DNA of 64,000 bases from assembly GCF_007741495.1 (NCBI RefSeq), contig NZ_CP036262.1, positions 744,001 to 808,000 on the forward strand, in the 5' to 3' direction. The DNA is from Roseimaritima multifibrata (GTDB lineage Bacteria > Planctomycetota > Planctomycetia > Pirellulales > Pirellulaceae). Shown here piece after piece: positions 2,272 to 24,751 of this stretch. Below the pieces are notes generated by a model. That model did no database searches and was not told where the DNA came from. It saw only the letters and a list, made by a program, of their open reading frames with translations. How positions within the stretch are numbered: the stretch's first letter is position 1; every line of letters begins with the position of its first letter. The position numbers were made by a program, and so were the translations under genes.

Positions 2272-2940
2272 ATGCTGGCTAGACTTAAAACTTACACGTT
2301 GCTGGGGATCGAGGCGATTCCGGTGGATGTGGAGGTCGATCTCTCTCCGGCCGCATTGCCAAAAACGATCCTGGTCGGCTTGCCAGATGCCGCGGTCAAA
2401 GAAAGTGCTCATCGCGTGGAGCGGGCCTTGGTGAACAGCGGTTTTGTTCGGCCTCAGGATCGAGTGGTTATCAACCTTGCTCCGGGTGACTTGCAGAAAC
2501 AAGCAGCTGGTTTTGATCTGCCGATATCCTTGGGCGTCCTGGCTGGCAGCGGGCAATTGCAATCGGATCTGTTTGATGACTATGCGGTGATCGGTGAGCT
2601 TGCACTGGAGGGTCACACGAGACCTGTCAAAGGAGCTTTGTCGGTCGCGATCGAAGCGGCGAAGCAGGCAGGGCTGCGAGGGTTGGTTGTCCCTACCGCA
2701 AACGCATCGGAAGCGGCGGTGGTAGAAGACATCGATGTGATTGCCGTCGACACACTGGCCCAAGCGGTCGGGTTCTTTTCGGGTGAATTGCCGCTCGATC
2801 CAACTCCAAGTCGAATCCAGCAGTTGTTCGCGGAACTCTCGCAGTACGATCTCGATTTCGGTGACGTCCGAGGCCAAGAGATGGGTAAGCGAGCCCTCAC
2901 GCTAGCCGCCGCTGGAAGGCACAATTTATTGATGTTGTAG
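2272..2940 (+). pseudogene. comM: comM 5' piece (N-terminal domain), interrupted by element 1
   Basis: Encodes the N-terminal 221 residues of a ComM/YifB-type Mg-chelatase-like protein: the opening V-D-L-S-P-A-A-L-P-K-T and L-V-G-L-P-D-A-A-V-K-E-S segments, and the G-D-L-Q-K domain typical of the family (substrate-binding S5-like fold). The true gene sequence ends at 2934 inside the N-L-L-M of the Walker A lead-in. The next codons (L, stop) belong to element 1, so the present product would be a 222-aa protein without the ATPase. The frame is otherwise intact, and the ATG at 2272 fits the usual family start. ComM is a hexameric helicase that helps extend recombination during natural transformation. 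Confidence 0.95.
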
Positions 2941-2950
2941 CCAGTTTGCC
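2921..2950. other. attL of element 1
   Basis: The comM sequence up to 2934 (core TGATG, 2930-2934) is joined to the element arm 2934-2950 (GTTGTAGCCAGTTTGCC). This arm is the inverted complement, 16 of 17 bases, of the arm 13263-13279 at the other end. The codon phase agrees: 2932-2934 is the Met codon of N-L-L-M. Confidence 0.85.
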
Positions 2951-2954
2951 TTCG

Positions 2955-3833
2955 CTAGCGGAGGTCGTGTATCTTGTACCAGACGCCAACTGTCTGCAAT
3001 AATGCTTTAATTTCTCCTACTGCAGTCGCCGACTCAGGCATAGAATGCCCCGCAACCTCAAAAATGTAAAAGTCTGCTTCATTCACTCGTCGTACATCAA
3101 AGACATTAGGGTGTTTCTTAAGGCGATTCATCAAGGCAAGCCGTTTTGTTTTGCTAACTTTCGTAAGATCAACTTCAAACTGACAATAGGGTTTGGTCGA
3201 TGTCATTTCATCGTGTTCAATTGACATGCCTAATGCACTTGCAAGTGTGGCAGGCCGGTTTACCTTAGCGTCCGAAAGTTTCCGTATCATCTGTAGCATT
3301 TCATCGATTTTGTCTTCCTCAGTTCGTTCAGGTGGGCTGACTTCTTCGTCAGGCTTGCTTGGCACTGCCTTGATTTGCACTTCCAATTTTTTCCACCAAA
3401 TTTCAAACGCGTCTCTTAGCCGCTCGGGTTCTAAACCGGTTCCGTCCGGCAGTTCATTATTTATCGTCTGCACTAGTGAAAGCGTATCTTCTCTCGTTGA
3501 GTTTGTGTGTTGAAATTGTCCTAGCGGCTGTGAAATATCTGACGGTTCTAATTCGTGCAGGTAGGTGCAAACGTATGCGGATGACAATTTCGACAATGCG
3601 CCTGCCTCAAATAAAATCCAGGGTGCATTCAAATTCTCCGGTGTTAAACAAATGATGCCCACGGCTGCCGTCTCAAGTTCTTTAGCTATCTGCACGTTGC
3701 CCCGCGCCCCCTTCAAAATGTCCTGGGATGATATAAACGGACTCACAGATTGGATTACGCTCGGCAACCAATCTCGTAGGGCCGTAGCAATATGTTTGCT
3801 CCGTGCTCCAGACCAACTAATAAAGATTTTCAC
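2955..3833 (-). CDS. TIR-domain protein (element 1 cargo)
   Basis: About 292 aa. The GTG at 3833 gives M-K-I-F-I-S-W-S-G and has GGAG eight bases upstream, so it is preferred over the upstream TTG at 3866. The first ~150 residues are a bacterial TIR domain: I-S-W-S-G (strand A), the S-S-Q-D-I-x-K-G loop, G-I-I-C-L-T-x-E-N-L, and P-W-I-L-F-E-A-G-A-L, whose Glu is the expected catalytic residue. TIR domains of this type hydrolyse NAD or make cyclic ADP-ribose signals in anti-phage systems. The C-terminal ~80 residues form an unrecognised alpha/beta domain that may sense the trigger. No obvious partner (Sir2, SLOG, SAVED) is adjacent. The gene ends 20 bases from the attachment core, a typical cargo position. 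Confidence 0.85.
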   Translation of the reverse strand: MKIFISWSGARSKHIATALRDWLPSVIQSVSPFISSQDILKGARGNVQIAKELETAAVGIICLTPENLNAPWILFEAGALSKLSSAYVCTYLHELEPSDISQPLGQFQHTNSTREDTLSLVQTINNELPDGTGLEPERLRDAFEIWWKKLEVQIKAVPSKPDEEVSPPERTEEDKIDEMLQMIRKLSDAKVNRPATLASALGMSIEHDEMTSTKPYCQFEVDLTKVSKTKRLALMNRLKKHPNVFDVRRVNEADFYIFEVAGHSMPESATAVGEIKALLQTVGVWYKIHDLR

Positions 3834-3904
3834 TCTTGTTACTCCAGGTGGTGTGTGATTGTTCAACTATAGCACACCAATATCTGACAAATTACTGTAT
3901 TTCT

Positions 3905-5827
3905 TCAATTGCTTCCTGCTTTAAACTCCTCCCAAAGACCATTCAGGTCCGGCAACGTCCGCTCCACCGACATGCCCTTGCCGTCCTCGCCCCGCAGCAC
4001 AGCTTTGCCGGTCGCAAGGCTGCCAGGTGGCACCAGGTCCTGTCTCTCGCCCGTCCTAAACCGCACCCGGCAAAACCGGCCCTCCCGCGACATGCGACGG
4101 CCCAGGACGTACTGCGCAAACCCCTTGGCTTGCTTGCGTGGCTTCAAGTCCAGCTCGTCTATCAATTCACCAATCCTGTCCACCTCGTCCCAGTCTGTGG
4201 AGCGTCGCGCATGTTGGCGACGGGGGCCGCGTGGCCCGTCCGTTACCTCGCCAGGCACCATGCCGCCATGCAGGCCTTTGTCGTAGGCAGCGGCAAAGCC
4301 GACGGGATAGATGGTGATTGTGTCGACAAATTCCCTCAGGTGGGCGTTTAGTTTAGCCCGTACGTCAGTTGCGTCGTCTGGCGCAATTGCAGCCCGCAAG
4401 GTGGCAATGTCTGCCTGCCACCGCTTTAGCGTCGTGGCGGTAGCGGTCAGGCGGTCTAACGCTGCCTTGTCGGTCGCAATCTGCGTTTCTATGACCGATT
4501 GCTCCGTCTCTAGTGCCACGGCCCTTTCCTCGTATTTATCACGCATCGTCTGGGACGGCGTGCGGGCAATTTGTTCGACCAAATTGTCTAATTGCTGCTT
4601 GGACTCGCCAAGTTTTGCCTGTCCAGCACTGATTCGCTGCTGCAGTGCCTTTGACTCCGACGACTTGGCCTTGTTGTCTGGCAGCACGTCAGCAGGTCGC
4701 AGCAGGTGGCAGTTGTCCAGCACGCACGTCAGCACCTCGTCATAGCGGACGCTATGGTAAGGGCAGCCCAGTTGCCGCCGTGCCCCGTCACAAACCAGCC
4801 CAGGTTTGGACCGCTTGCCCTTGTCCGTGTAGTGCATGGCACGGCCGCAATAGCCGCAGACAACAAGGTGCCGTAGTACGTTGCTAAACCGTCCTGTCCG
4901 TCCACCTTTCCCACGATTAGTGTCAAGTTTCTTCTTGACCGCAAAGAAAAGCTCCTCGCTCACTACCGCTGGGTAATACCCCTTTATTGGTTCGCCGACC
5001 GGCTTGCGGGGGCCGTCTCGCTTCACATGCGGCTGGTACTCGCCAATCACTGCCCGGTTGTTAAGTATCTTTTTGATGTAGCTGCTGCGCCAGCCGTTCC
5101 CCTGCTTGCCTGCTGCCTGGTCTGCGCGACGTACGGGTGGTGGTGACCATGTCGCGGTTTTGTTCATCTGCCGTTCTATTTCACCATTGCCTAGCCCGTC
5201 TCGCTTCATCTCAAAAATGCGTTCAATGGTCTTCGCTGCCTCGGGGATTAATGCAAACCTCGTCCCGTTGTCCGCAGTTGTCAGCCAAGCGGGGGCGCGC
5301 GACGTGACCATTTTCCCAGTCTGCCTGGCGTCGTCAAACGCCCGGTTCCGCGACGCCTGGATCAGGTCTGACTTGCGTTTCGACTCCGCTTGTCCGCGCT
5401 GGATGCCAAACAGCAATTTTATCCATGCAATATCGTCCTTGTTGCCTGGCGCAAAAGTGTCCTCAGGTTCAATTGTTTGCAGCGTAATCCCGTTGTCCCA
5501 TAACTTAAAGCAGATCTCCTTCAGCACCTTGTCTGTTTCCTCGCGGCTCAAGCGGTCAATATTCTCGACCAATAGGATGCTTCCCCGTGGCACTTTGCCC
5601 GCTTCGATGTCATGCAAGAAACGTCCTAAGTGCCCTTTTTTTCGGTGGGTTCCGCTGTAACCAGATAGCCCTCGGTCAGTTTGCGTTTCGTATAGTGTCA
5701 GCTTGTTTCGTGCTAGCCAGCTTGCAGCCAGCTGCTCCTGGCGTTTTTCGCTGCTGCCAAACTCCTGCTCTGGCGTGCTGAACCGTAAGTAGCTGTAGAC
5801 GCGCGGCTTGGCCTTAGATGCTGCCAT
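3905..5827 (-). CDS. Large serine recombinase, probable integrase of element 1
   Basis: 640 aa from the ATG at 5827; GTG and TTG codons just upstream are less likely. N-terminal resolvase domain: Y-S-Y-L-R-F-S-T-P-E-Q with the catalytic Ser, and V-E-N-I-D-R-L-S-R-E. Then the recombinase domain around residues 170-300, a zinc ribbon (C-G-Y-C-G-R-A-M ... L-V-C-D ... G-C-P-Y-H) and a coiled coil (repeated Q, L, E from about 390 to 480). This is the complete architecture of large serine integrases. It is the only large recombinase in element 1, so it should make the TGATG crossover. The C-terminal ~130 residues are basic and unassigned. Its gene lies just inside the TIR gene at the left end. Confidence 0.92.
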   Translation of the reverse strand: MAASKAKPRVYSYLRFSTPEQEFGSSEKRQEQLAASWLARNKLTLYETQTDRGLSGYSGTHRKKGHLGRFLHDIEAGKVPRGSILLVENIDRLSREETDKVLKEICFKLWDNGITLQTIEPEDTFAPGNKDDIAWIKLLFGIQRGQAESKRKSDLIQASRNRAFDDARQTGKMVTSRAPAWLTTADNGTRFALIPEAAKTIERIFEMKRDGLGNGEIERQMNKTATWSPPPVRRADQAAGKQGNGWRSSYIKKILNNRAVIGEYQPHVKRDGPRKPVGEPIKGYYPAVVSEELFFAVKKKLDTNRGKGGRTGRFSNVLRHLVVCGYCGRAMHYTDKGKRSKPGLVCDGARRQLGCPYHSVRYDEVLTCVLDNCHLLRPADVLPDNKAKSSESKALQQRISAGQAKLGESKQQLDNLVEQIARTPSQTMRDKYEERAVALETEQSVIETQIATDKAALDRLTATATTLKRWQADIATLRAAIAPDDATDVRAKLNAHLREFVDTITIYPVGFAAAYDKGLHGGMVPGEVTDGPRGPRRQHARRSTDWDEVDRIGELIDELDLKPRKQAKGFAQYVLGRRMSREGRFCRVRFRTGERQDLVPPGSLATGKAVLRGEDGKGMSVERTLPDLNGLWEEFKAGSN

Positions 5828-5830
5828 CAA

Positions 5831-5857
5831 TGTCACCCTGTCAAAAAAGTGTCACCC
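5831..5857 (-). promoter_or_regulatory. Direct repeat TGTCACCC before recombinase gene
   Basis: TGTCACCC occurs at 5831-5838 and 5850-5857, 19 bases apart (about two helical turns), directly upstream of the ATG at 5827. An inverted copy (GGGTGAC) lies near 5891. The spacing suggests a repressor site on the integrase gene, but no regulator can be named. Confidence 0.35.
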
Positions 5858-5907
5858 GTTAAGAAGTAGAAGGGGGCGGCTGGCCTGTCCGGGTGACGGG
5901 CAGTAAA

Positions 5908-5938
5908 CGGCCCCACGCGGGTAATTAGTCCGCGTGGT
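5908..5938. promoter_or_regulatory. Conserved TAATTA motif with hairpin, copy 1
   Basis: GCGGGTAATTAGTCCGCG at 5917-5934 sits 89 bases upstream of the recombinase start. Here it lies inside a strong inverted repeat: CCACGCGG (5913-5920) and CCGCGTGG (5930-5937), extendable by three more pairs after one mismatch. The same core recurs at 15363 and 24080. It also follows the end of the DUF2213 gene (5963), so the hairpin could end that transcript. Confidence 0.55.
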
Positions 5939-5962
5939 GCCGCCCCCAGGGCTACAGGCGTG

Positions 5963-6964
5963 TTAGCCTGTCTGCGTCCAGTCGATCGCTGCCATAACCA
6001 ACGGTCCGTCGTCGCGGCTGTGCTGGGCTGCCTGCTGGCTGTTGTGGACTTGGCCAGCGTCGGCATGCCCGTAGCCCCAGTCTGGCAGCAGCAGCGGTGC
6101 CTCGTCCGACTGGCCGCGTACGTTGGCAACCACCTCGTCTAGCTCGCCTGCTGCGTCTGCATGCCCATCGGCTCGCATTGCATAGGCAGCCCCTTCCAGG
6201 TAGTCAGCAACCAGGGGCGTGCTGCTGCCCAGGTTGCCGTGTGGCTGCGGTTGCTGTTGCGGCCAGCTGCTTGGTGCGACAACGGGCATCGCGTCGTGGC
6301 TGGCCCCCTGGTGGCTGCTGCAGCCACAGCCGTTGTTGGTCGGTGGACCAAAATCCATCGTTGGCATCAGTAGCGGGCTTTCGTCGTAGTCCATTTCGCT
6401 TTCCTTGTTCATCTGTAAAAGGCCGCAACCGTCAACAACCGCACACGCGCCCTTGCCTGTTACCAGCAGGGCTAGGTGGTCGGGTCGAAAGTTGGTGGCC
6501 ACTTTGGTAAAACCAGCGTTCCCCTGTCCGCCATAGTTGGCTGAGGGGGCTGGTACGTTGTCTGTAAACAGACCAGTGCTCACTTCCATAGGCTTGCCTT
6601 GCTCCAATGCCGTCAGTACCGACGGGGCAAGCTGCCGTAGTCGCTCAACCTCCAGCCAGGCCTCCGCACGCAACTTCCGGTGGTCCCAGTGGGCGTTTCG
6701 GATCATGCCCACGGTTTGGGACGTTCCTACCTCAGCAACCGCCACCGGCACGCCACCTATTGCTGGGTGGCCGACCGTCACTGGCACGCCGTTCCACTGC
6801 CCCGGTCGCTTGGCAAGTTCTTCCTTGGTGTAAAGCAGCGCGCCGCCGCTGCCCTTGTGGACGCCAGGCACCAACATTGCCACCGGGGCAACCAGGTAAT
6901 CCTTGCCGCCTTCGGTCGCTTGACGGACGTATTGGTTGTGGACGTTGTGGGTGATGGTTTCCAT
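5963..6964 (-). CDS. DUF2213-like phage prohead/protease protein
   Basis: 333 aa. The N-terminal ~170 residues resemble the DUF2213 prohead family: T-K-E-E-L-A-K-R-P-G-Q-W-N-G-V-P-V-T-V-G-H-P, then the E-V-S-T-G block and R-P-D-H-L-A-L-L-V, followed by G-A-C-A-V-V-D-G-C-G. In tailed phages this gene lies next to the portal and capsid genes and acts in head assembly. Here neither neighbour is present. The C-terminal half is low-complexity, rich in Gly, His, Gln and Asp, and unrecognised. Start at 6964 with AAGG about ten bases upstream. Same strand and order as the terminase genes, so probably one packaging operon. Confidence 0.7.
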   Translation of the reverse strand: METITHNVHNQYVRQATEGGKDYLVAPVAMLVPGVHKGSGGALLYTKEELAKRPGQWNGVPVTVGHPAIGGVPVAVAEVGTSQTVGMIRNAHWDHRKLRAEAWLEVERLRQLAPSVLTALEQGKPMEVSTGLFTDNVPAPSANYGGQGNAGFTKVATNFRPDHLALLVTGKGACAVVDGCGLLQMNKESEMDYDESPLLMPTMDFGPPTNNGCGCSSHQGASHDAMPVVAPSSWPQQQPQPHGNLGSSTPLVADYLEGAAYAMRADGHADAAGELDEVVANVRGQSDEAPLLLPDWGYGHADAGQVHNSQQAAQHSRDDGPLVMAAIDWTQTG

Positions 6965-6984
6965 CTGCTTGGCCTTGGGTTGGT

Positions 6985-7488
6985 TTAGACTTTGATGTTA
7001 GATAGTTCGGTCTTGTAGGCCTCTTCTGCGGCTGCCCGCTTTGCCTCTGCTTTGGCCTGTTCTGCTGCGTCGGCCCGCGTCATGCCTCTGGCTGCCAAGT
7101 CCGCGTCCTCTAGCGCCACCTCAGCAGCCGCAAGTGCCTTATTGCTCGCCCGCACCGCATCCCTGGCAGCGGTCAACCTGGCAATGTTGTCAGCTGGGTC
7201 AGGGTGCGTGCCTGGGTTGTGGGTAAGCGACTCCTTCAGGTCATCAAACGCTTGCGTCTGGCGCTTGACGGCCAGGCGGTGGTATTGGCAAATGTTGGCG
7301 TAGCGCTCGCGGTCGTCCTCGGGTGGCGGTTCCATTTGTCCAAATCCGTAACGCTCATATTCCCGCCTTGCCCCCGTCGCGTAATAAAGCCACGTTCCCC
7401 CGCCATCAACTGGTTTGCCATTTTCCTGTTCAAACCATTCGATTCGTGCCTGTGCTTGGGCCTGGGCTGGGTTTTGGTTTGGCAACAT
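6985..7488 (-). CDS. Small coiled-coil protein in packaging operon
   Basis: 167 aa, not recognised. The N-terminus is Gln/Ala-rich, the middle holds a Trp/Tyr-rich segment (G-T-W-L-Y-Y-A-T-G-A-R-R-E-Y), and the last ~70 residues are Ala/Glu/Lys-rich and should be helical. The start at 7488 has a good ribosome-binding site (AAAGGTGA). It lies between the terminase large subunit and the DUF2213 gene, where full phages carry a portal gene, but it is far too short to be a portal. It may be a scaffold or adaptor protein; that is only inferred from position. Confidence 0.6.
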   Translation of the reverse strand: MLPNQNPAQAQAQARIEWFEQENGKPVDGGGTWLYYATGARREYERYGFGQMEPPPEDDRERYANICQYHRLAVKRQTQAFDDLKESLTHNPGTHPDPADNIARLTAARDAVRASNKALAAAEVALEDADLAARGMTRADAAEQAKAEAKRAAAEEAYKTELSNIKV

Positions 7489-7520
7489 CTCATTTCACCT
7501 TTGGTTAATTGATCTTCGGT

Positions 7521-8924
7521 CTAAAACATCGCGCCGACTAGGCGTACTGGCTTACTGGTCACAGCGGCAACGCCTGCCACCACGTTTGCTAGGTCGTCGT
7601 GGCCGCCGCGTGGGTGGTCAATAATGTCTTTCCCGCCAGCACGCGTCCGGCGTTCCAGGCTGGCCAGTTGGTCCAGCAACTTCGCTTGGTCCAACAGCTC
7701 AACGCAACCACTGCAAAGCAGCGGCAGCAGCTCGGTGTAAAGACCTGACTTCGGCTGCTCGGCGCGTTTGTAGCGGATGCCGTTACGGGTAAAGGCGGAC
7801 GACACAAACTCCGCAGCGTAATTGTCACCTGTGACGCGCCTGCAGCCGTAGCGGCGTAGGTCTACGGCCATTGCGTCAACGACTGCCGACGGGTTAAAGG
7901 GTGGAGACCAGCTGCGTGCATAATCAATCACCACGTTCTGCTGTTCTTTGTGGGCAATCGCTAAAGCGGCGTCATCACCACGCCCACCAGACATATCAAC
8001 AAAGGCCGTGTATTTCGTGCCCTTTCTAGGCATCCGCTCACTGCAGCCCTCGATTACCAGTGGGTCTAGTACGGCCCTGGTAATGTAGTCCGCAACATCA
8101 TCTCGCCATTCGCCTAAGTACTCGCTCCGTGCTGCGTGCTTATCCTCAGCAAGGGCCGTTACCACCACGTGCTCGGGCAGTGTCGGGTTCATCGTCCGGC
8201 TGCTTGCGTTCCATACCAACACCTGCCCCTTCGGGTTTGCATGGTGGCGGACGTACTGTTGCCAACACCACCCTTTGCGTGCGTATGGGCTGCTAATGCA
8301 GACCAGTTTGCCCCCGGTGGTTGCCAAGGCAGGCCGGATCGCTCGCATCAGCTCCGTATCCGTTCTGCTGCGTGTCTCGGCATCAGTGCCAAAAAAACAA
8401 GCCTCATCAACCACCGCAGCTAGTAGCGTGTACCCGCGTATCGTTCGGTAGTCGCCCGCCAAGATTTCGATGCGTGTGCCGCACCGCAAGGAGAAGCCGC
8501 TTTTTGTCTCCCTCTCCAGTTCCCGCTTAAACAGCGGCGTTTCAAATATCGCCCGGCAGTAGTCGCGCACGATGCGACCCTGGGCCATCGTCGGTGCCAC
8601 CACCGGCACAACCCCACGTTCCCCGGGTGCCAGTCGCGTGTAGTGACCAGCCAGCACCGCCTCGTATGCCGCCACCGTGGCGGCTATGCGGGACTTGCCG
8701 CTACGTCGGCCTGTTAAAAACAGGGCCGCATCGAAGCCACCAGGCGGCAGCGTGTTGACGTTGCGCCCCGTGCAGTCGGCAACAATGTGGCGTGCGGTCC
8801 TGTTGACGACCGGCAGGCCGTACAGCGTCCGCAGGGCGGCCAGCCAAGGCTGCCAGCTGGCCAAGTCCGTACCGATAAAGCTGCCAAGCAGTTGCGGGTC
8901 TTTGATTGCCTCGATGATGTTCAT
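7521..8924 (-). CDS. Terminase large subunit (DNA packaging ATPase/nuclease)
   Basis: 467 aa, full length for the family. ATPase: G-R-R-S-G-K-S (Walker A, near residue 90) and A-A-V-V-D-E-A-C-F-F (Walker B with catalytic Glu), then C-I-S-S-P motif III. Nuclease: F-V-D-M-S-G-G-R-G-D-D-A, a conserved Asp in the V-T-G-D-N-Y segment, and H-D-D-L-A-N near the C-terminus, the three acidic positions of the RNase H-like fold. It cuts and pumps DNA into a prohead. The start overlaps the preceding gene by four bases (ATGA), so the two are translationally coupled. Without portal or capsid genes in the element, it would need a helper phage's proheads. Confidence 0.88.
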   Translation of the reverse strand: MNIIEAIKDPQLLGSFIGTDLASWQPWLAALRTLYGLPVVNRTARHIVADCTGRNVNTLPPGGFDAALFLTGRRSGKSRIAATVAAYEAVLAGHYTRLAPGERGVVPVVAPTMAQGRIVRDYCRAIFETPLFKRELERETKSGFSLRCGTRIEILAGDYRTIRGYTLLAAVVDEACFFGTDAETRSRTDTELMRAIRPALATTGGKLVCISSPYARKGWCWQQYVRHHANPKGQVLVWNASSRTMNPTLPEHVVVTALAEDKHAARSEYLGEWRDDVADYITRAVLDPLVIEGCSERMPRKGTKYTAFVDMSGGRGDDAALAIAHKEQQNVVIDYARSWSPPFNPSAVVDAMAVDLRRYGCRRVTGDNYAAEFVSSAFTRNGIRYKRAEQPKSGLYTELLPLLCSGCVELLDQAKLLDQLASLERRTRAGGKDIIDHPRGGHDDLANVVAGVAAVTSKPVRLVGAMF

Positions 8925-9286
8925 GCTTGGCGCTCGGCAAGGTAGGTTTGCAAGTCGGTGGTGTCCTTAATGACGCGTTCCAGGCCCAGGGTTCGCAGCA
9001 GCCCCAGCAAGGCGTTCGACATTTGGGTATACACGCCGTGGTCAAAGGCCCCGGTCTCCGCTGCCGTGCATTCCATCGTTTCAAGTTGTACGCTCATAAA
9101 CACAGCCCGCTGGCATAGTAACTCCTTCTGGTAGCTGTCGGCCCCGGTGTCGTCCGCCAGCGTCTGGTAACGGTGGCGTACCTCCTTCGCAATGCCCGTG
9201 CGACCATCAATCATTTCCCAAAAACGTGGGACGAAAGTGGCCGGGACAGCAATCTCTTTCAGTCGTTCCGGTCGGCGTTTGGCCAT
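8921..9286 (-). CDS. Probable terminase small subunit
   Basis: 121 aa from the ATG at 9286 (M-A-K-R-R-P-E-R-L-K). No family motif is firmly recognised. The call rests on size, the basic N-terminus, the helical composition and the four-base overlap with the terminase large subunit gene, which is the usual TerS-TerL arrangement. The protein would recognise the packaging start site. An upstream start would add 28 residues of Pro/Thr-rich sequence and is less likely. Confidence 0.55.
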   Translation of the reverse strand: MAKRRPERLKEIAVPATFVPRFWEMIDGRTGIAKEVRHRYQTLADDTGADSYQKELLCQRAVFMSVQLETMECTAAETGAFDHGVYTQMSNALLGLLRTLGLERVIKDTTDLQTYLAERQA

Positions 9287-9419
9287 GGTGTCTTGGTGGT
9301 GTCGTGGTGTAACTGGGTGGCAGTTGGTCGGTAGTCGTAGTGTGACCAGGGGCGTTCTAGGCGAAGTCACGGGGGAAGGTCAAACCTCTCAGGACCTGAT
9401 TCCGGGCATTTAGGCAAAA

Positions 9420-10010
9420 CTATTTTGTAGCAGCCAAGTATCGGGCCACCGTGGCCCGTGACACGCCCATAGCAGCGGCCACCTCGTGCTGCGTTAGCCC
9501 TTTGTTGCTTAGCCGCCTGGCCTTGGTGGGGCTGGCTTTGCGGTGGCCTGGCTTGGTCCCCTTGTACTTACCTTGGGCCTTGGCAACCTGGATGCCCGCT
9601 GCCTGCCGTTCGCGTCGTAGCTCCTGCTCCATCTGCGCGACACCAAGCAGCACAGCTGCAATCATTTGTCCCACCGTGCCGCTAAAGTCCAGCTGCTGGC
9701 CGACGGACACTAACCGTATGCCTGCCTTGGCCCAGTCGGTGATGGTGTCTATGCCGTCACGCATGGACCGACTTAGCCTGTCCAGCTTGTAGACCACCAC
9801 CGTGCCCACCGTGCCGCTAAACACGTCCTGCTGCAGCTGCTTAAAGCCGGGCCGGTCCAGGTGGTCGCCTGTGTCCTGGTCGACGTACCAGCGCACAGCG
9901 TCCGCGTGGTGGCCGTGGTTGTTTAGCCACTGTTGGACCACGGCGCGCTGGCCCGCTTCGTTTTGGCCTGTGGTCGATACGCGGATGTAGACTGCGATTA
10001 GTTTTGCCAT
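9420..10010 (-). CDS. Small serine recombinase (resolvase/invertase type)
   Basis: 196 aa from the ATG at 10010, with GAGGA upstream. Catalytic domain: Y-I-R-V-S-T-T-G-Q (catalytic Ser), V-Y-K-L-D-R-L-S-R-S-M-R-D, and the long E helix with E-R-Q-A-A-G-I. The C-terminal helix-turn-helix is L-T-Q-H-E-V-A-A-A-M-G-V-S-R-A-T-V. This is the complete layout of Tn3-type resolvases and Pin/Hin invertases. It may resolve multimers or invert a segment. The non-coding stretch just upstream (10011-10547) would be the natural place for its target site. Too small to be the element's integrase. Confidence 0.88.
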   Translation of the reverse strand: MAKLIAVYIRVSTTGQNEAGQRAVVQQWLNNHGHHADAVRWYVDQDTGDHLDRPGFKQLQQDVFSGTVGTVVVYKLDRLSRSMRDGIDTITDWAKAGIRLVSVGQQLDFSGTVGQMIAAVLLGVAQMEQELRRERQAAGIQVAKAQGKYKGTKPGHRKASPTKARRLSNKGLTQHEVAAAMGVSRATVARYLAATK

Positions 10011-10547
10011 TGCTCTTGTCCTCTGGGGCAGGTGTTTGTTCGCGACGTGACCAAACAGGGTACAGCTCAGATGCAACAAGAAGCTAGCCCTCCGGGGCCC
10101 TGGTATTTGCTAGGGTTTTGCAGGTCCTGGGCGTCTGGGTGCAGGGCGACCCTATTTGCTACCAGGGCAGGTGGTGGGCTGCTGTCGGTGGCAGGCATTT
10201 GCGGGTAGGGGCAAAAACCGCATCAAGGGCGGGGGCTGTTCCTCGGGCCCCTCTGGGCCCCTGTGTTGCTTGTCGCCTGTTACCCGTGACGGGATGTGGG
10301 TGGTGCTAGGGGTTACCAGCTACGCATTGGCGGGTGTGCTACGTGGTGGCAGTTGGATTTGTTGCCGCCTATTCATCGCGTGTTGTGCGCTGCTAGCTAC
10401 GCGTTGGTGGTGGTGCCTGTTACTGGTGGCGCGTGTGCAGTCATTGCGGGGCAAGTTCCAATCGGTGATAATCCGCTGCAACCGTTATCGCCCGTTATCC
10501 CTGCGGCGGTGGGGACAGTTACCATTTATGCCAACGAAGGAACTTGA
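10011..10547. other. Divergent non-coding region with short direct repeats
   Basis: Lies between the resolvase gene (minus) and a plus-strand gene, so it should hold two divergent promoters. It is G/T-rich, with two copies of GGGCCCCT and two of GCTACGCRTTGG (10319-10330 and 10396-10407). A third copy of the 11-base core lies at 10980-10990, past the plus-strand gene. Reading frames here have no recognisable motif. It may contain the resolvase target site. Confidence 0.4.
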
Positions 10548-10958
10548 ATGACAAACCCGGCCAGAGCGTCAACACAATACGGTGATTGCGCTGGAACGAT
10601 TTGTGTGGATGGATTCAACGGACTTACTATCTTCGATCTAATCGAATCCTCGGCAGCACCAAAGGGCTACTGGCCGGTCGGACTTCGCATTTATGGATGG
10701 GGGACCGAAGGACGTGATAGGGATGGCCAACCACCGAAGCTTTCCGCAAAAGTACTCTGCGTTGACACAGACCAGGTCGGGACTGGCCCCGACAAAATCC
10801 TTAATTATTGTCGCAATAACCCGGAGCTTCATACGTTTGAATTCGACGCAGAGATTGACATTCTTAAACTCCTGTCGCAGCTAAAGCGATTGGACATCGT
10901 CCTGTTGTCCAGGGTTGTTGAGGATGCTGAAGTCAGGATCCAGCCGGTTCAAGATTAA
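10548..10958 (+). CDS. Unknown protein, only plus-strand gene in element 1
   Basis: 136 aa, not recognised. Start supported by GAAGGAACTTGA directly upstream of the ATG. The sequence reads as a compact soluble domain (T-I-C-V-D-G-F-N-G-L-T-I-F-D-L ... L-K-L-L-S-Q-L-K-R-L-D-I-V-L-L-S-R) without signal or membrane segment. It is more AT-rich than its neighbours and runs opposite to them. The direct repeats at 10396-10407 and 10980-10990 bracket it. These signs suggest a separately acquired cargo gene; function unknown. Confidence 0.6.
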   Translation: MTNPARASTQYGDCAGTICVDGFNGLTIFDLIESSAAPKGYWPVGLRIYGWGTEGRDRDGQPPKLSAKVLCVDTDQVGTGPDKILNYCRNNPELHTFEFDAEIDILKLLSQLKRLDIVLLSRVVEDAEVRIQPVQD

Positions 10959-11187
10959 CAGCGACGCGCACCGCTACCGGCTACGCGTTGCAGGCTGTGT
11001 ACCGGCAACCACGGCCGGGCTGCCGGCCGGCGGTCTAGCTATAGCCCTGTCTCGTTGCGCTCGACGCCGTCTCGCGGCCGTTCGGGGCTGCCCTGGTGTC
11101 ATCAGACCCTCGGGCTGCTTGGTGGCGTCCTGGGGCCAATAAAAAAACCGCGGCGGTGGTGGTCCGTTGCGGGGCGTGGTGGTGGCA

Positions 11188-11562
11188 TTATGCGTTGTTA
11201 AAAAAGTCCGCAAACCGGGCTTGGTTGTCACCGTAGGCCAACCGCTCCAACCAACGGGCCCTGGTGTTGGCGTACTGGACCCGGTCAATGTCAAATTCCA
11301 ACGCAGGCCCAATACCGCCCACGTAGTCGTCTCCCAGGTACATCAATAGGTAGTCGCCCTTGGCTGTCGCCTTGGTGTAGCGGGTGTGGTGGATGTGTCC
11401 CTGGTGCTCTGGGAACATTGGACACCACCGCAGGCTAGGGCCGTCGCCGTCGTCAGGTAGCCATTTTGCAGCGGCAAGCCAAAAGTCCCCGCTGACAGGC
11501 CGCAGCAGGCCCAGCACCGCGCCACCGTCTAGCAGCTTTGTTAGTAGTTCATCCGTATTCAT
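11188..11562 (-). CDS. Unknown protein, 124 aa (element 1)
   Basis: Not recognised. An acidic soluble protein that begins M-N-T-D-E-L-L-T-K-L-L-D-G-G and contains a Trp-rich middle and the segment Y-L-L-M-Y-L-G-D-D-Y-V-G. No membrane segment. Ribosome-binding site weak. It is the third gene of a minus-strand run from 12266, separated by about 100 bases from the gene before it. The stretch 10959-11187 after its end holds no gene that I can support. Confidence 0.5.
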   Translation of the reverse strand: MNTDELLTKLLDGGAVLGLLRPVSGDFWLAAAKWLPDDGDGPSLRWCPMFPEHQGHIHHTRYTKATAKGDYLLMYLGDDYVGGIGPALEFDIDRVQYANTRARWLERLAYGDNQARFADFFNNA

Positions 11563-11661
11563 TTGTTCTAGATTCCAATTGGTTGCAAGGTTGGCAAAAG
11601 TAAAAGCCCGCCCCGGTAGGTCCGGCGCGGGCTTGGTCGTGGTGTCGGTTGGTGGCGGCGG

Positions 11662-12102
11662 TTACGCGATGGCGTCGGCAGCCAGGCCCAAAAAGCCACG
11701 GGCAGCGTGGTGGGCGTTCTTTAAGCAAAACTTCGACTCCACCGGGTTTGGCTTCCCGTAGGCCGCATCCAGCTCCGCAACCATTGCGTCTGTAACGCCT
11801 GCCGCTAACCCGTGCTTGGCAACGACGACGCCCGCAAGGTAGGGCCGCGTCCGCATAGGTCGGACGCCGGGCAGGCTGGGTGGCCCTTCGTTGGGTGGTG
11901 TCTGCCTAGGTGCGGGGGCGGTGGTGTCGTCGGTCGTTGCGGCTACCTTGGGGTTTTTGCCAGCCTTGTCCTTGGCGGTGTAAAAGGCCTTGGCCGCGTG
12001 GGCGTCGTCAAAGGTTTTAGTACGTCGCTGCCCTTTGCTTCCCCAGTCGTAGCTCACGCTCACGGTGGGGTCTGGTGTCGCTAGTGGTTTCTTCTTTCCC
12101 AT
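11662..12102 (-). CDS. Unknown basic protein, 146 aa (element 1)
   Basis: Not recognised. Lys/Arg-rich N-terminus (M-G-K-K-K), a Pro/Thr-rich linker in the middle and a helical C-terminus with N-A-H-H-A-A-R-G-F-L-G-L-A-A. The start codon overlaps the stop of the preceding gene (ATGA at 12099-12102 in minus sense), so the two are translated together. The N-terminal segment with Y-D-W-G and K-A-F-Y-T-A-K-D could bind nucleic acid, but this is a guess from composition. Confidence 0.5.
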   Translation of the reverse strand: MGKKKPLATPDPTVSVSYDWGSKGQRRTKTFDDAHAAKAFYTAKDKAGKNPKVAATTDDTTAPAPRQTPPNEGPPSLPGVRPMRTRPYLAGVVVAKHGLAAGVTDAMVAELDAAYGKPNPVESKFCLKNAHHAARGFLGLAADAIA

Positions 12103-12266
12103 CAGTCTTGGTCCTTGGCAGGTGGTTTAACCTGGGCAGCTGGGTTGCTGTCCACTGCATTGACTCTAGACAGCATCTGGTGCGGGAGCAACTCGATGAA
12201 CCGGAGCAGGCGGCTGGTTTCTGGGATAAAGTTTTTGGGGGCGTGCGGCTGGTAAGGACGGGGCAT
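12102..12266 (-). CDS. Small protein, about 54 aa (element 1)
   Basis: Begins M-P-R-P-Y-Q-P-H-A-P-K-N-F-I-P-E. An earlier TTG start would read through the upstream tandem repeat as W-L-P-W-L-P, which looks like translated repeat rather than protein, so the ATG at 12266 is chosen. No ribosome-binding site is clear. Support is the ATGA overlap with the next gene. Confidence 0.4.
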   Translation of the reverse strand: MPRPYQPHAPKNFIPETSRLLRFIELLPHQMLSRVNAVDSNPAAQVKPPAKDQD

Positions 12267-12277
12267 GTGGCTAAGTA

Positions 12278-12311
12278 GCCAGGGCAGCCAGGGCAGCCAG
12301 GGCAGCCAGGA
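12278..12311. repeat. Tandem repeat of AGGGCAGCC
   Basis: About three and a half copies of the 9-base unit in a row, just upstream of the small gene that starts at 12266. It could be an iteron-like protein-binding array or a slippage product. Copy number is low and no matching array is seen elsewhere in the window. Confidence 0.6.
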
Positions 12312-12376
12312 CACTAGGGGTTTACACAATGCGCCCAACGTGCGGCTATTGGCGTTTCGCGTTGCAATTTACTGCA

Positions 12377-13090
12377 CTAATTGTGCTGGTGGCCCTCGGC
12401 GATAGGTGAAAATGGCGCACCCCAGCGACGGACCGTCGACTCTGGCTTTCCTAGCACCCTCGCAATTTGCCGGTTACCCATTCCAGCCAATCGCATCCAC
12501 CTTACCTTTGGCTCTGCCTCCAGTCGCTCACGTTTCTTGCTTCCTGGTTTCGATTTGCGTGGCCGCCCGCCGCTACCACCTTTCGCGGCTTGCCCAATTT
12601 GTGACAAATGGCGATTCTCTTCTTTTGCGCTAGCACGCGGCTCAAGGTGTGTGACCAGCGTGACGCCATCAGCTATGTGCATTAGACCCGCTAAAGTGTC
12701 TTCATCAGCTTGGACGTGCTGGCAGGTACGCGCGCCAAAGCCAGGCTGGCGTACAAACCGGTTTGGTGTGACAGCCAGTAACACAGCGTCATGGTGCTTT
12801 GCCAGTGCAACCGACGAGCGTAACGACGACAGGTCCACGCCGCTGCCAATGCGTTTGTCTACGGCAACAACCTTGCCGCCCACCGTAGTGACTTGTGCGC
12901 GCAGATAGGTTTCGTGGTCGTCCAGGTGGCTCTTCTGTCCAGCGGTGCTGACCCGCAAACGCAATACAACCTGCATGCCGGGTTGGATAAAAGTAAACGG
13001 TTTAATCGGCGTGCTAGCAGCCCTCGCCAGTAGAGCACGCTGGCGTCGTGCAGGGTTGCGGCGTCCGCGTTTCGGTTTGATTGTATTCAT
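12377..13090 (-). CDS. Divergent serine-recombinase-like protein
   Basis: 237 aa from the ATG at 13090. After a basic N-terminal tail (P-K-R-G-R-R-N-P-A-R-R-Q-R) comes a resolvase-type opening V-L-R-L-R-V-S-T-A-G-Q, which keeps the catalytic Ser and the Arg two before it. The usual D-R-L-x-R block is replaced by T-P-N-R-F-V-R-Q, and one central segment is reduced. The C-terminus ends in a helix-turn-helix (M-G-N-R-Q-I-A-R-V-L-G-K-P-E-S-T-V-R-R-W). Whether it still recombines is uncertain; it may act as a DNA-binding directionality factor or repressor. It is the first gene from the right end of element 1, next to a strong inverted repeat. Confidence 0.7.
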   Translation of the reverse strand: MNTIKPKRGRRNPARRQRALLARAASTPIKPFTFIQPGMQVVLRLRVSTAGQKSHLDDHETYLRAQVTTVGGKVVAVDKRIGSGVDLSSLRSSVALAKHHDAVLLAVTPNRFVRQPGFGARTCQHVQADEDTLAGLMHIADGVTLVTHLEPRASAKEENRHLSQIGQAAKGGSGGRPRKSKPGSKKRERLEAEPKVRWMRLAGMGNRQIARVLGKPESTVRRWGAPFSPIAEGHQHN

Positions 13091-13119
13091 AAATTCCCAA
13101 TGTGTTGCGACTTGGGCAG

Positions 13120-13160
13120 CCCCGGCCGTCCGGCGCATTGGGACACGCGGACGGCCGGGG
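13120..13160. promoter_or_regulatory. 13-bp perfect inverted repeat near right end of element 1
   Basis: CCCCGGCCGTCCG (13120-13132) and its exact complement (13148-13160) are separated by 15 bases. It lies 30 bases upstream of the recombinase-like gene start and about 100 bases inside attR. An operator or a recombination accessory site is more likely than a terminator, as there is no T-run on either side. Confidence 0.6.
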
Positions 13161-13262
13161 CAAGGTGGGGGATCAGTCCCACAAACCCATAGTCGGTCAG
13201 TATTAGCTATCGTCGGTAATTGTCAATTCAATGGGGGCATGACTGGGGCCAAAGCCGGTGCA

Positions 13263-13291
13263 GGCAAACTGGCGACAACCTGCTGATGATC
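13263..13291. other. attR of element 1
   Basis: The element arm 13263-13279 (GGCAAACTGGCGACAAC) is followed by CTGCTGATG, and comM resumes at 13289 (ATC, Ile of [10 protein letters not shown]). In the excised circle the two arms would flank the 8-base centre CTGCTGAT, so the shared TGATG core starts at the dyad centre, as expected for a serine integrase site. Confidence 0.85.
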
Positions 13292-13659
13292 GGGCCGCCA
13301 GGGAGCGGAAAAACGATGTTGGCGAAGCGATTGCCGACGGTTCTGCCGGAATTGGTAGCCGGTGAGTCGATCGAAACGACTCGAATCTATAGTGCGATTG
13401 GGCAGTTGCCCGCCGGTCAGCCGTTGCTTGCCAGACGGCCCTTCCGCAGCCCTCATCATACGATCAGTGATGCCGGCTTGGTCGGCGGAGGCAGTCCACC
13501 ATCGCCGGGAGAAATATCGAAAGCGCACAACGGGATCCTTTTCTTGGATGAACTACCCGAATTTAACCGCAAGACGTTGGAGGTGATGCGTCAGCCTTTA
13601 GAGGATGGAGTCGTTACGATCAGTCGAGCGCTTCGAAGCACGACGTTCCCAAAGGACTT
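13289..13659 (+). pseudogene. comM: comM middle piece (Walker A and B), between elements 1 and 2
   Basis: These 371 bases continue comM in the same frame. They encode I-G-P-P-G-S-G-K-T (Walker A), [36 protein letters not shown] (Walker B) and L-R-Q-P-L-E-D-G-type residues, ending at F-P-K-D. The frame is open, but the upstream codons (13220-13288) and downstream codons (13660-13795) belong to the elements, so no functional product is expected. No stop or indel has accumulated, which argues that the insertions are recent or that comM is periodically restored. Confidence 0.95.
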
Positions 13660-15281
13660 GCCAACTCTTGCGATACAGGAACCGCCCACGCTGGGAACGA
13701 TTCGGCACGGAAGTAAATCACCCCGCCCCGTAGCTTGTGCGACGACCGCTTGCCGCATGGAACCCGCTCGATGTCAACGTCAACCCGCTCGATAAACTGC
13801 CCTAGCATCTCGGCCAATACAGGGGGATCGTATTCGGTGCCCACGATGGCCTCCAGTCGATCAAGCCAACGGATAGCGGAATCAATGCGTTCCTCTGCCC
13901 GTGCAATCTGCTCTGCGGCTGGGGCGGTTGTTTTTGCCAGTCGGTCGGTCAGCGTGTCGCGTTCGTCTTGGATCGTCCTAACCCGCTTCTCGACCAATGG
14001 TCGCAAGTCTTCGGACGTCGATAACATCGCGTTGACTGCCTGCTCAAGCTCGCCCTCTGTCTCTGCCAGTCTTTGCCGGTCGGCTGCGCGGTTGCGCTCA
14101 ATGTCCCCGCTGCCTTCTAGCAAGATTTCCCGCATCTGGTCTTTGATGGCTTCACGCTCAGCGGAGCCGAAAAACTTATCAATGAACTCGGTACGGATCG
14201 CTTTAAGGATTTCCCCTAAAACCAAATCCTCCTTAACGGTTCGCCGCTCGCATGTCCCCCGACTGTTCTGGTAGTCGATGCAGATATAGCGTTTCACATT
14301 CTCGCCCTTGGCAGACGTACCGCAAAGACGCGAGCCGCAATTCTTGCAAAACAGCAACCCGGTCAGTGCGTAACGGTTTTTCGACTTCGGGCCGGTCATG
14401 TTCTTGTTCTTGGCTTTGCGTTGATGGCATCGGTCGAATAACTCTTGGCTTACCAATGGCTCGTGACAATTCGTGATAACCGACCACTCGCTTTCCGGTC
14501 GGTTGATGCGGTCCCCACTAGGGGAGCCGTACGGCAGATACTTCGATGCGGTCGACTTTCCGTAGGCGAGATGTCCCCGGTAAACAACATTGTTCACGGT
14601 GTGCCGTATGGACTGCTGCTGCCAGTTGTTCCCCCGTCGCGTCTTGACTCCCTGCGATGTCAACCACGCCGCGATTTCACGATAGGATTTCCCTGCCGCG
14701 TATTGCTCGAAAATGGCCTTCAATATTCGGACTTCCGATGGCTTGGCGGGAATCAGCTTGCCGGTCTCGCTGTCGACTTCATAGCCAAACGGAGCAAAGC
14801 CACGGGTCCAGCGTCCCAGTTTCTCAACTCGGTCTTGTCCACGGCGGACGTTTGCGGATAAGTCGCGTAGATACTGCGCCTTGCCCATCTGGCTTGCCAT
14901 GTAGCCAAGTTGCCCCGTCAACGTCGTCCAGTCGATGGCCCCGGCGGTGGTTGTGACAAGGCTAACTCCTGCGCTGCGTAGCGGCTCGATCCACTTACCG
15001 GCTTCAATAAGATCGAACCGGCCGAACCTGTCTTGGTCCCAGCATAGGATAGCTTCAAACTTTCGCGTTGAACCGTCCGCAATCATGCGACGGAAACCGG
15101 CCCGCTTCTCGGTATTATTGCCACTTACCCCCAAGTCCTCGTAAGTCGCAACGATTTCATAACCATGCTCGATGGCAAGTTTCGCGATTGCTTCACGCTG
15201 CTGCTCTGGGCTCGTTTCCTGCTTGTCCGTTGACATGCGGACGTAAGACGCTGCCGGTGTTTGCTTCGGCTTTGCGACCAT
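13620..15281 (-). CDS. Large serine recombinase, probable integrase of element 2
   Basis: 553 aa. Resolvase domain: [10 protein letters not shown] with the catalytic Ser, D-L-G-V-S-G, and [11 protein letters not shown]. Recombinase domain with [12 protein letters not shown] near residue 210, zinc ribbon ([12 protein letters not shown] ... Y-I-C-I-D-Y ... G-T-C-E-R-R), then a coiled coil rich in Glu, Arg and Leu. It belongs to a different subfamily from the recombinase of element 1. The last ~12 codons and the stop (13620-13658) are comM DNA read on the other strand, so integration replaces its C-terminal tail. In the excised circle the frame would continue for about 25 other residues to a stop at 24162-24164. 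Confidence 0.92.
13655..13666. other. attL of element 2
   Basis: The core GACTT continues into the element as GACTTGCCAACT. This is the exact complement of AGTTGGCAAGTC at 24220-24231 near the other end. To the left is comM (T-T-F-P-K-D). Confidence 0.85.
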
Positions 15282-15362
15282 GCGACACTCACTTTCTCGG
15301 TAGTGGTGATTGATTCTCGAAAATTAAATAGGGCAACCAGTCGAGAAACTGGCTTTCGGCAT

Positions 15363-15378
15363 GGGTAATTAGTCCGCG
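15363..15378. promoter_or_regulatory. Conserved TAATTA motif, copy 2
   Basis: GGGTAATTAGTCCGCG, identical over 16 bases to the copy upstream of the element 1 recombinase, and 81 bases upstream of the element 2 recombinase start on the same strand. The flanking hairpin of copy 1 is absent here, so the core itself is what is conserved. Confidence 0.55.
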
Positions 15379-15520
15379 CCTAGCCCAGCTTTAGTTATCG
15401 CTAAGCCGGGCGTAAAAAGCAAGTAAAGCAACCGCCTGTCTAGGCACTAGCGGAGCCAGTGTCAACTTCTCAGGCCGATGAAAACAACGGGAGTCGCACA
15501 GAAGGGGCATCGGGACCATA

Positions 15521-16058: not shown

Positions 16059-16062
16059 TCAG

Positions 16063-20033: not shown

Positions 20034-20042
20034 CGTGTTGCC

Positions 20043-24219: not shown

Positions 24220-24246
24220 AGTTGGCAAGTCGGCACCTGCTGACTT
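24220..24246. other. attR of element 2
   Basis: AGTTGGCAAGTC (24220-24231), ten bases, then the core GACTT, after which comM resumes (C-ATG-TTA). In the excised circle the two 12-base arms face each other across ten bases; the core lies within the right arm, not at the dyad centre. A small palindrome TACGGTAAACCGTA lies about 40 bases further inside (24177-24190). Confidence 0.8.
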
Positions 24247-24751
24247 CATGTTAATCGCCGCTGCGAATCCGTGTCCCTGCGGGTACCGAAGTGATCCAAG
24301 GCGGAGTTGTAATTGCACTCCGCCTCAGATTGAACGCTACATGGGAAAGATCTCGGGACCGCTCATGGACCGGATCGATATCCATATTGAAGTCCCTGCG
24401 GTTCCTTTTGAAGAATTGTCCAATGGTTCAAAAGGGACGGACAGCGAAACGATGCGAGTCCAAGTCAATCAAGCGCGCGAGATTCAGGCGGAGCGGTTTA
24501 ATAAATCGGTGACGCGTTACAACGCGCTGATGAGTAGCCGTGATGTGCGGCGGCACTGTGCGCTTGACCGGACATGCCAAAATCTGCTGCGGCATTCCGT
24601 CGAAGAGATGGGCTTAAGTGCAAGAGCCCATGACAAGATCCTCCGAGTCGCTCGGACCATCGCTGATATGGAAGCAAGCGAAGCGATCACAGAGCCTCAC
24701 CTGCAAGAAGCCGTCAACTATCGAACGCTCGACCGCGATCTTTGGACGTAG
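24247..24751 (+). pseudogene. comM: comM 3' piece (C-terminal ATPase half), after element 2
   Basis: The last 168 codons plus the stop of comM. The first base completes the F codon split by element 2 (TT at 13658-13659, C at 24247). Motifs: M-L-I-A-A-A-N-P-C-P-C-G, R-R-S-C-N-C-T-P, R-Y-x-x-K-I-S-G-P-L-M-D-R-I-D-I-H-I-E-V, and the final Mg_chelatase C-terminal helical domain with A-R-A-H-D-K-I-L-R-V-A-R-T-I-A-D-M. Joined to the other two pieces it gives a 512-aa ComM, close to the usual family length. An ATG at 24248 could drive a separate C-terminal fragment, but I see no convincing ribosome-binding site. Confidence 0.95.

Follow-up and report, generated by a model that had tools for sequence, protein, structure and literature searches.

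Phage satellites, as they are described in PMC10690885, either borrow the motor of a helper phage, some of them contributing a small terminase subunit (TerS), or carry both a motor and a shell. Some SaPIs carry TerS, and PICIs and SaPIs otherwise use the terminase of the helper, whereas cf-PICIs are integrated satellites with TerS, a large terminase (TerL) and a head maturation protease of their own, and the Streptomyces phage satellites Mulch and Flayer bring their own terminases together with portal, major capsid and scaffold (PMC10690885). Anti-phage cargo has been reported for P4-like satellites (PMC9122126), and Tycheposons, VEIMEs and PICMIs are satellite families of environmental bacteria that have been named recently (PMC11389934). 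Here we consider an element in a stretch of 64,000 nucleotides of Roseimaritima multifibrata DNA (contig NZ_CP036262.1, positions 744,001 to 808,000; hereafter the window), designated element 1 (Table 1), whose gene content suggests to us, with a probability of roughly three in four, a phage satellite that would package itself with its own motor into the heads of a helper.

Table 1. Features of element 1 and of the interrupted comM gene, in window coordinates
Feature	Coordinates	Strand	Basis
comM, 5' part	2272..2934	+	alignment with comM of relatives
Element 1	2935..13274	.	~10.34 kb, interrupting comM
TIR-domain protein, candidate anti-phage cargo	2955..3866	-	PADLOC TIR-TM, E 1.2e-65
Large serine recombinase (integrase)	3905..5836	-	Pfam Resolvase, Recombinase, Zn_ribbon_recom; phrog_95 integrase, 9.6e-66
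DUF2213 / prohead-protease-like protein	5963..6964	-	phrog_760, E 3.7e-13
p167, coiled-coil protein of 167 aa	6985..7488	-	homologues after TerL in sister elements
Large terminase (TerL)	7521..8924	-	phrog_2, E 1.6e-25; invariant positions
TerS-like protein, 149 aa	8921..9370	-	overlap with TerL, fold, synteny; start may be 9286
Small serine resolvase	9420..10079	-	Pfam Resolvase, 1.1e-31; synteny upstream of TerS
Small ORF, no family assigned	11188..11562	-	nothing at E <0.2 (Pfam, PHROGs)
Small ORF, no family assigned	11662..12102	-	weak matches only (Pfam, PHROGs)
Helix-turn-helix protein with weak serine-recombinase N-terminus, far element end	12377..13138	-	Pfam
comM, middle part, flanked by elements 1 and 2	13275..13650	+	comM alignment
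comM, 3' part	24236..24751	+	comM alignment

The interrupted gene, comM, which we take to encode an Mg-chelatase-like ATPase, runs as an uninterrupted frame of 512-532 aa in three relatives (G001-G003). When comM of these relatives was aligned to the window, the DNA of G002 matched up to 2934 and again from 13275; the breakpoints given by G001 differ from these by a few bp and the left one given by G003 lies ~10 bp earlier, and because the two comM ends share a short similar sequence, the borders of the element are uncertain by ~10 bp. With borders defined to this extent and a large serine recombinase of its own, element 1 appears to be a discrete mobile element. Its TIR protein, which also matches phrog_13899 (E 1.8e-66) and, just under the cut-off, Pfam TIR_2 (1.3e-5), is probably anti-phage cargo. 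The helix-turn-helix protein at the opposite end, for which both Pfam matches are under the cut-off (HTH_23, 1.4e-4; Resolvase, 0.012), has homologues in five sister elements (L003, L016-L019). No replication gene (primase or helicase) was recognised when 13 ORFs of the element were scanned with Pfam and PHROGs.

For the segment 5963-9286 the coordinates and frames given in the first-pass annotation are right, the start at 9286 being an internal methionine (Met29) of a TerS-like ORF that reaches 9370. TerL matches a further terminase family (phrog_9, E 1.5e-13) and reaches just E 0.037, under the cut-off, with Pfam Terminase_6N. Its residues G72, R74, G76-K77-S78, D173-E174, D310, D367 and D443-D444 are invariant in an alignment of 11 sequences, and as we take these positions to be the ATPase and nuclease motifs, the Walker and nuclease motifs are intact, as had been claimed. 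In the phage records the closest TerLs (10 matching records) are at most 29.1% identical, so that no phage there has a closely related motor. The preceding ORF does overlap TerL, by 4 bp, and homologues of it stand before TerL in other loci; its best family match in Pfam and PHROGs is merely E 0.08. Its AlphaFold model (pLDDT 79) ranked terminase small subunits first and third in a viral library, where the best E was 0.025 and none was 0.001 or better, and among re-aligned PDB candidates HK97 TerS took ranks 2 and 3 at Z 7.3 (8pop_B, rmsd 3.4 over 94 aligned residues; 6z6e_C, rmsd 2.7 over 79), an unrelated chain scoring Z 7.5. Fold, position and synteny together make it likely that the protein is TerS-like, the fold match being modest for a helical protein.

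The DUF2213-like gene reported to follow TerL is indeed present downstream, but not directly, as the p167 gene separates the two. Against head maturation protease PHROGs the window protein reaches just E 0.015 and 0.13, while the copy in L017 matches three such families at 7.1e-10 to 1.2e-8 and PF09979/DUF2213 at E 5.2e-9. When eight element and three phage copies were aligned, His66, Ser129 and Asp162-His163 proved invariant in all 11 rows. The window protein consists of a conserved N-terminal domain and an unrelated tail, the protease part being without the long C-terminal region found in phage DUF2213 proteins. It would appear to be kin to the prohead proteases, with the active-site His and Ser kept, from which we infer a catalytic role.

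The intervening protein, p167, was modelled by AlphaFold (pLDDT 89.6) with helices at residues 59-90, 98-133 and 138-163, and gave no Foldseek match at E <= 0.001 in the PDB or the viral library BFVD. A likeness to ABC transporters, which led a re-alignment via their coiled-coil stretches (top Z 8.4), was rejected as a common arrangement, and a weak match of the L016 copy to a tape-measure family (E 0.045) was judged to be coiled-coil noise. The window p167, used as the one query, matched nothing in 50,697 phage records, and a single-protein scan of IMG/VR gave no relative. The p167 gene could serve as a marker for finding further such elements; its E-values are too favourable for genomes with rows in alignment A2, and we set aside matches within frames of 1,162-1,264 aa (G188, G255, G530) and a weak pair in G499.

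The first-pass annotation saw no portal, capsid or tail gene here, and profile searches agree. Ten of the 13 ORFs of element 1 were compared with Pfam and PHROGs and three with PHROGs only, other small overlapping frames lying outside the scan, and none had a credible match to a portal, capsid, connector or tail family; the PHROG matches of this kind were a connector over 34 residues in the TIR protein (E 0.27) and, on the large serine recombinase, tape-measure and virion families at E 0.25 and 0.56. Nor was a credible structural family seen, among the matches listed, when 77 ORFs from eight sister elements were scanned, the list for 76 of them comprising the best 25 of 40 PHROG families and the remainder being at E 1.6e-5 or weaker. 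These 77 are ORFs other than the assigned recombinase, TerS, TerL, p167 and DUF2213 genes and small overlapping frames. In L179, three ORFs were scanned in Pfam and the others with profiles built in this analysis. Element 1 would thus hold genes that steer packaging without a complete set of virion genes. It might be argued that the satellite is self-sufficient, a very divergent capsid or portal being among the unassigned genes, since several ORFs have no family and p167 occupies the position of the portal in the gene order of related phages. We consider this improbable, as the p167 model, with its long coiled coils, found no structural counterpart at the threshold above and as the genes found in common among the sister elements, besides recombinases, are TerS, TerL, p167 and DUF2213.

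These sister elements bear most directly on the question of origin. The order TerS-TerL-p167 occurs in ten planctomycete elements (that of the window and nine further ones, L003, L016-L019, L026, L143, L144 and L179), so that the same gene set does recur in other planctomycetes, with no structural gene credibly recognised in the eight sister elements scanned. Ahead of TerS lies a resolvase in nine elements; the tenth, L144, has an integrase-profile match in that place. DUF2213 follows p167 in six (the window, L016-L019 and L026), lies elsewhere on the opposite strand in L143 and L144, and was not recognised in two of the ten, and is therefore dispensable. In a tree of 72 rows a single branch sets nine related TerLs with p167 after them, from the window, L003, L016-L019, L026 and the short contigs L002 and L004, apart from portal-bearing phages, with support of 100/100 and in all 200 bootstrap trees; L002, 3.2 kb long, belongs to a MAG named Wenzhouxiangella, where it may have been placed by a binning error. 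The TerLs of L143 and L144 (phrog_9-type) and of L179 (another type, TerL_ATPase) are distant and stand outside the tree, each with the same p167. Six TerLs of the clade are 41-69% identical with dN of 0.28-0.64, dS being 3.1 in one of the 15 pairs and beyond calculation in the remaining 14, that is, with saturated synonymous sites, and there were no stop codons in the 24 genes compared; at the level of sequence, this pattern of divergence indicates constraint. Borders were mapped for two elements, that of the window (10.34 kb) and L017 (10.43 kb, in G014), the latter enclosed by a 23-bp tRNA-Pro repeat whose copies are 10,430 bp apart. Left out of the counts are a TerL fragment with a stop codon (G544), the distant TerLs of G152, G302, G363 and G377 and a DUF2213 match with two stops (G597). 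L039, L043, L047 and L051, which were considered as wider members on account of a related TerL and a tape-measure gene, were also left outside; as L043 also matches tail-fibre, some of them may be prophage pieces.

Could the element be what remains of an ordinary phage that lost its structural genes and kept terminase and protease by chance? The gene order is part of a phage morphogenesis block, as in L146, a prophage from that bacterial family with the order TerL-portal-head morphogenesis-DUF2213-head decoration-virion structural protein, and the lack of a recognised replication gene would fit. Yet the same reduced block recurs in ten elements, nine related TerLs form a single clade, dS is saturated with dN modest, the recombinases are intact and the mapped sizes are 10.34 and 10.43 kb; independent decay is unlikely to have spared the same genes together with p167, for which the one query gave no match in the phage records, and the identities of the six TerLs oppose one recent insertion copied between genomes. 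We regard decay as very improbable, and the earlier argument from unbroken frames is borne out by intact genes, a recurring block, one clade and constrained divergence, none of which would mark the homologous regions as remnants of full prophages. The sister elements suggest instead a stable lineage, which probably takes its shells from infecting phages.

Two of these elements, L018 and L019, share one genome and are 90-99% identical at 8,001-9,250 and 11,001-11,500 and 44-62% identical at 9,251-11,000, which is most of TerS-TerL. Identity also falls in p167-DUF2213 (53-81% in several windows of the comparison), in the cargo and in the recombinase, so that TerS-TerL is not the sole diverged part. 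Such putative satellites, living side by side in one genome with different TerS-TerL, provide a natural experiment for the study of packaging specificity. Cargo elsewhere includes a TIR effector in L018 and putAbiC beside the L016 block; L143 has a DUF3631 protein and L179 a DUF3854 protein, presumably of replication-associated families. The cargo, with the TIR-TM protein of the window, raises the thought that TerS, TerL, p167 and the protease mainly sabotage the heads of incoming phages, the element moving by another route, and a protease part without the long C-terminal region of its phage counterparts would suit such a role. However, sabotage needs neither the conservation of both ATPase and nuclease positions in TerL nor the joint divergence of TerS and TerL as a block, and we think it unlikely as the main function. 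Sabotage and satellite functions are compatible with each other. Another thought is that the terminase now serves the DNA of the cell or of a plasmid, for instance by processing multimers with the neighbouring resolvase; nine of the ten elements do have the resolvase upstream of TerS, and the block also occurs on plasmids. This leaves unexplained the adjoining prohead-protease-like gene and the kinship with full phages whose head operons hold the same families, and there is little chance that it is correct.

The packaging satellite put forward as a possibility in the first-pass annotation is therefore supported, neither credible structural genes among the ORFs scanned nor homologous regions resembling full-prophage remnants having come to light. 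If element 1 is such a satellite, its large serine recombinase would excise it upon helper infection or induction and, as no replication gene was recognised, its DNA would be replicated by host or helper enzymes; its own TerS would then select this DNA and its own TerL would drive it through the portal of a prohead made by the helper, the assembly, size or maturation of which might be modified by p167 and the short protease, and the small resolvase would resolve multimers to monomers. With respect to helpers, PF04860, PF05065 and PF06381 have no match in G000, which therefore has no resident helper of those types, and G164 has none to PF04860 or PF05065; capsid matches over the cut-off occur in G002, G014 and G614, and the surroundings of L148-L150 gave just capsid and integrase matches with the profiles built in this analysis.

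The first-pass annotation knew of no described planctomycete satellite of this kind, and our searches of open-access papers gave no planctomycete satellite. A related arrangement outside the planctomycetes is on the Komagataeibacter nataicola plasmid pKNA06, which has a recombinase-TerS-TerL-DUF2213 block, a VapE-type protein and ParA; neither its annotated products nor the six ORFs scanned include a shell gene. In contrast to element 1 it is not integrated, its TerL is 39% identical, and the gene after DUF2213 is unlike p167, its 226-aa protein showing no similarity to p167. It is tempting to speculate, although we would put this at somewhat less than even odds, that all these belong to a new class of satellites with their own TerS-TerL and a scaffold-less maturation protease, a shell and portal from the helper, and a p167 that docks the motor or resizes the prohead, a class in which TerS-TerL is swapped between satellites as one cassette, thereby making helper switching possible, and which may span planctomycetes, where it is integrated, and Alphaproteobacteria, where it is on plasmids without p167. 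It will be interesting to learn how a foreign TerL docks to a helper portal, and what a prohead protease does without a scaffold.

Set beside the satellites of PMC10690885 as that source presents them, element 1 is like the cf-PICIs in having a TerS-like gene, TerL and a protease-like gene, TerS being assigned by fold and position and the protease by homology; it differs in that the major capsid, portal and connectors of cf-PICIs were not recognised, among the matches listed, in nine elements here. It shares an own terminase with Mulch and Flayer, whose portal, capsid and scaffold were not recognised in element 1. To the extent that PICIs, SaPIs and P4-like satellites are characterised in the sources cited, they too are small integrated islands, and they redirect helper packaging as element 1 is predicted to do, but element 1 differs from them in its own TerS-TerL pair, its protease-like gene and its large serine recombinase. 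A stable lineage with a motor and a protease-like gene, and with shell and portal unrecognised, would be an intermediate between the satellite types described in that literature.

Two elements divide a comM-like gene of Roseimaritima multifibrata (G000, a single 7.2 Mb contig; window G000:C1:744001-808000) into three parts, and because the gene is uninterrupted in the relatives G001, G002 and G003 when these are compared with the window, the borders of element 1 could be placed (table). Read along the minus strand from its right end, element 1 begins with an HTH gene whose N-terminus weakly resembles a recombinase, followed by small ORFs, a small resolvase, the TerS-like (small terminase) gene, TerL (large terminase), p167 (a 167-aa coiled-coil protein) and a prohead-protease-like DUF2213 gene, and it ends with the genes for a large serine recombinase and a TIR protein. 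Among the 13 element 1 ORFs scanned, no credible match to portal, capsid, connector or tail families was found. The findings on element 1 and its relatives fit a satellite that has its own motor and protease and borrows the remainder: it would excise after integration, its DNA would be replicated and packaged into helper heads, and p167 and the protease may both have a role in the packaging scheme. Searches of open-access papers for planctomycete satellites turned up none. What counts against a satellite is that no replication gene was recognised in element 1 and that no phage TerL close to its own was found in phage records. A second element lies in the middle of the same gene.

Features of the window
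Feature	Position	Note
comM-like gene, first part	2272-2934	
element 1	~2935 to ~13274	
DUF2213 gene of element 1	5963-6964	minus strand
comM-like gene, second part	13275-13650	
second element	13651-24235	~10.6 kb
its own large serine recombinase	13620-15281	
its DUF3987 protein	20817-22409	E 2.5e-74
comM-like gene, third part	24236-24751	

The element 1 TerL matches the terminase families phrog_2 and phrog_9, and the residues that we take to be its P-loop and nuclease motifs (the latter as candidate aspartates) are, like a DE pair, invariant among 11 aligned relatives. In Pfam and PHROG searches, the strongest family match of the TerS-like protein reaches only E 0.08. When its AlphaFold model (pLDDT 79) was used as the query, terminase small subunits took ranks 1 and 3 in a viral structure library (best E 0.025), and HK97 TerS was among the leading group in a PDB re-alignment (Z 7.3); for a helical bundle such a match is only suggestive of TerS identity, and its modest quality counts against the satellite reading.

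TerS-TerL-p167 is common to ten elements read gene by gene: that of the window, L003, L016 (genome G002), L017 (G014), L018, L019 and L179 (all G164), L026 (G614), L143 (G485) and L144 (G617). In six of them p167 is followed by DUF2213; L143 and L144 have their DUF2213 gene at another place and on the other strand, and in L003 and L179 none was found. G164 holds three satellite-like elements, and L018 and L019 each have a tandem pair of p167-like genes. L180 (G499:C551), an 8.9 kb contig on which no TerL was recognised, also has two such genes in tandem, with a resolvase and a small terminase of the Terminase_2 family (E 5.4e-19) close by. Counting G000, the TerL search matched 3/60 relatives, 6/392 phylum genomes and 5/241 family genomes, matches of mixed kinds; a p167 profile matched 4/392 and 8/241 of the latter two sets, some spuriously, and DUF2213 matched 8/241 family genomes. 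L016 is surrounded by tRNA genes, and L017 is flanked by a 23-bp tRNA-Pro repeat (copies 10,430 bp apart) that encloses an integrase gene (phrog_1). As cargo, L018 carries a TIR effector and L026 a nuclease, and putAbiC, which lies beside the L016 block, may be cargo as well. Across eight sisters (L003, L016-L019, L026, L143, L144), 76 further ORFs matched 21 Pfam families, none of them structural, and no structural family is among the 25 listed of the 40 PHROG families matched; a 77th ORF is a transposase.

A TerL tree of 72 rows has a single branch (100/100; 200/200 bootstrap trees) that sets apart the nine TerLs with p167 behind them, those of the window, L003, L016-L019, L026 and two short contigs, L002 and L004; the tree leaves out L143, L144 (phrog_9 type) and L179 (TerL_ATPase), where distant TerLs adjoin p167. 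Six TerLs of this group share 41-69% pairwise identity with dN of 0.28-0.64, and dS is too high to be measured in all but one of the 15 pairs, for which it is 3.1, a saturation at which dN/dS is not computable; divergence of this kind points to long-term constraint on the sequences. IMG/VR holds 65 TerL relatives, at 33-47% over the best segment. The portal cluster (PF06381/phrog_146) occurs in 25 of the 87 loci compared, and no p167 element is among these 25.

Compared in 250-bp windows, L018 and L019 are 90-99% identical across the resolvase (8,001-9,250) and again at the TerL end and just beyond (11,001-11,500), but only 44-62% over 9,251-11,000, where most of TerS and TerL lies. Cargo, recombinase and, in part, p167 and DUF2213 differ as well. 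Taken with the other TerL types found beside p167, this pattern makes packaging specificity look like a part that is exchanged.

The DUF2213 copy of L017 matches PF09979 and three head maturation protease families, and His66, Ser129 and Asp162-His163 are common to eight element and three phage copies. Element copies are 189-333 aa long as against 461-549 aa in phages (412 aa in L146, a prophage) and are without the long C-terminal part of the phage copies, which is presumably the scaffold. Relatives occur in 251 phage records; annotations among the 20 listed include prohead serine protease and coat or capsid protein. Fusion of DUF2213 to PF06381, the portal family of related phages, in a single protein is reported in an earlier paper (PMC8770471). 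The p167 model, a high-confidence one (pLDDT 89.6, from five sequences), is helical and partly coiled-coil and had no Foldseek match at E <= 0.001; a single query found no p167 relatives in 50,697 phage records.

Related arrangements extend beyond planctomycetes. The Komagataeibacter nataicola plasmid pKNA06 carries recombinase-TerS-TerL-DUF2213, plus a VapE-type protein and ParA; its DUF2213 strongly matches PF09979 and head maturation protease, and no structural family was found in six other ORFs scanned, the VapE protein among them. pKNA06 is partly duplicated, its second TerL copy broken into two frames. A 9.7 kb Roseomonas plasmid encodes a DUF5906 protein, a recombinase, a TerS homologue and, at the record end, a partial TerL. 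Packaging genes were noticed at further loci too. On two IMG/VR contigs, L034 and L042 (15.0 and 17.1 kb), the clusters present are those of integrase, TerS, TerL, protease, major head protein and tape measure protein, with no portal among the ORFs scanned; these contigs may be capsid-forming satellites that also carry a tape measure gene. In the 15.9 kb plasmid pDJL3 of Rhodococcus qingshengii, an integrase, a terminase and a tape measure protein are annotated and neither a capsid nor a portal is, and Salinibacter ruber plasmid pSR11 (11.2 kb) has a P4-family primase, a terminase family protein and ParA.

The phage counterpart is prophage L146 in G023, of the same bacterial family, which runs TerL-portal-head morphogenesis-DUF2213-head decoration-virion structural protein; a gene for a tape measure protein comes farther along. 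In the satellite elements, p167 occupies the position that the portal and head morphogenesis genes hold in L146.
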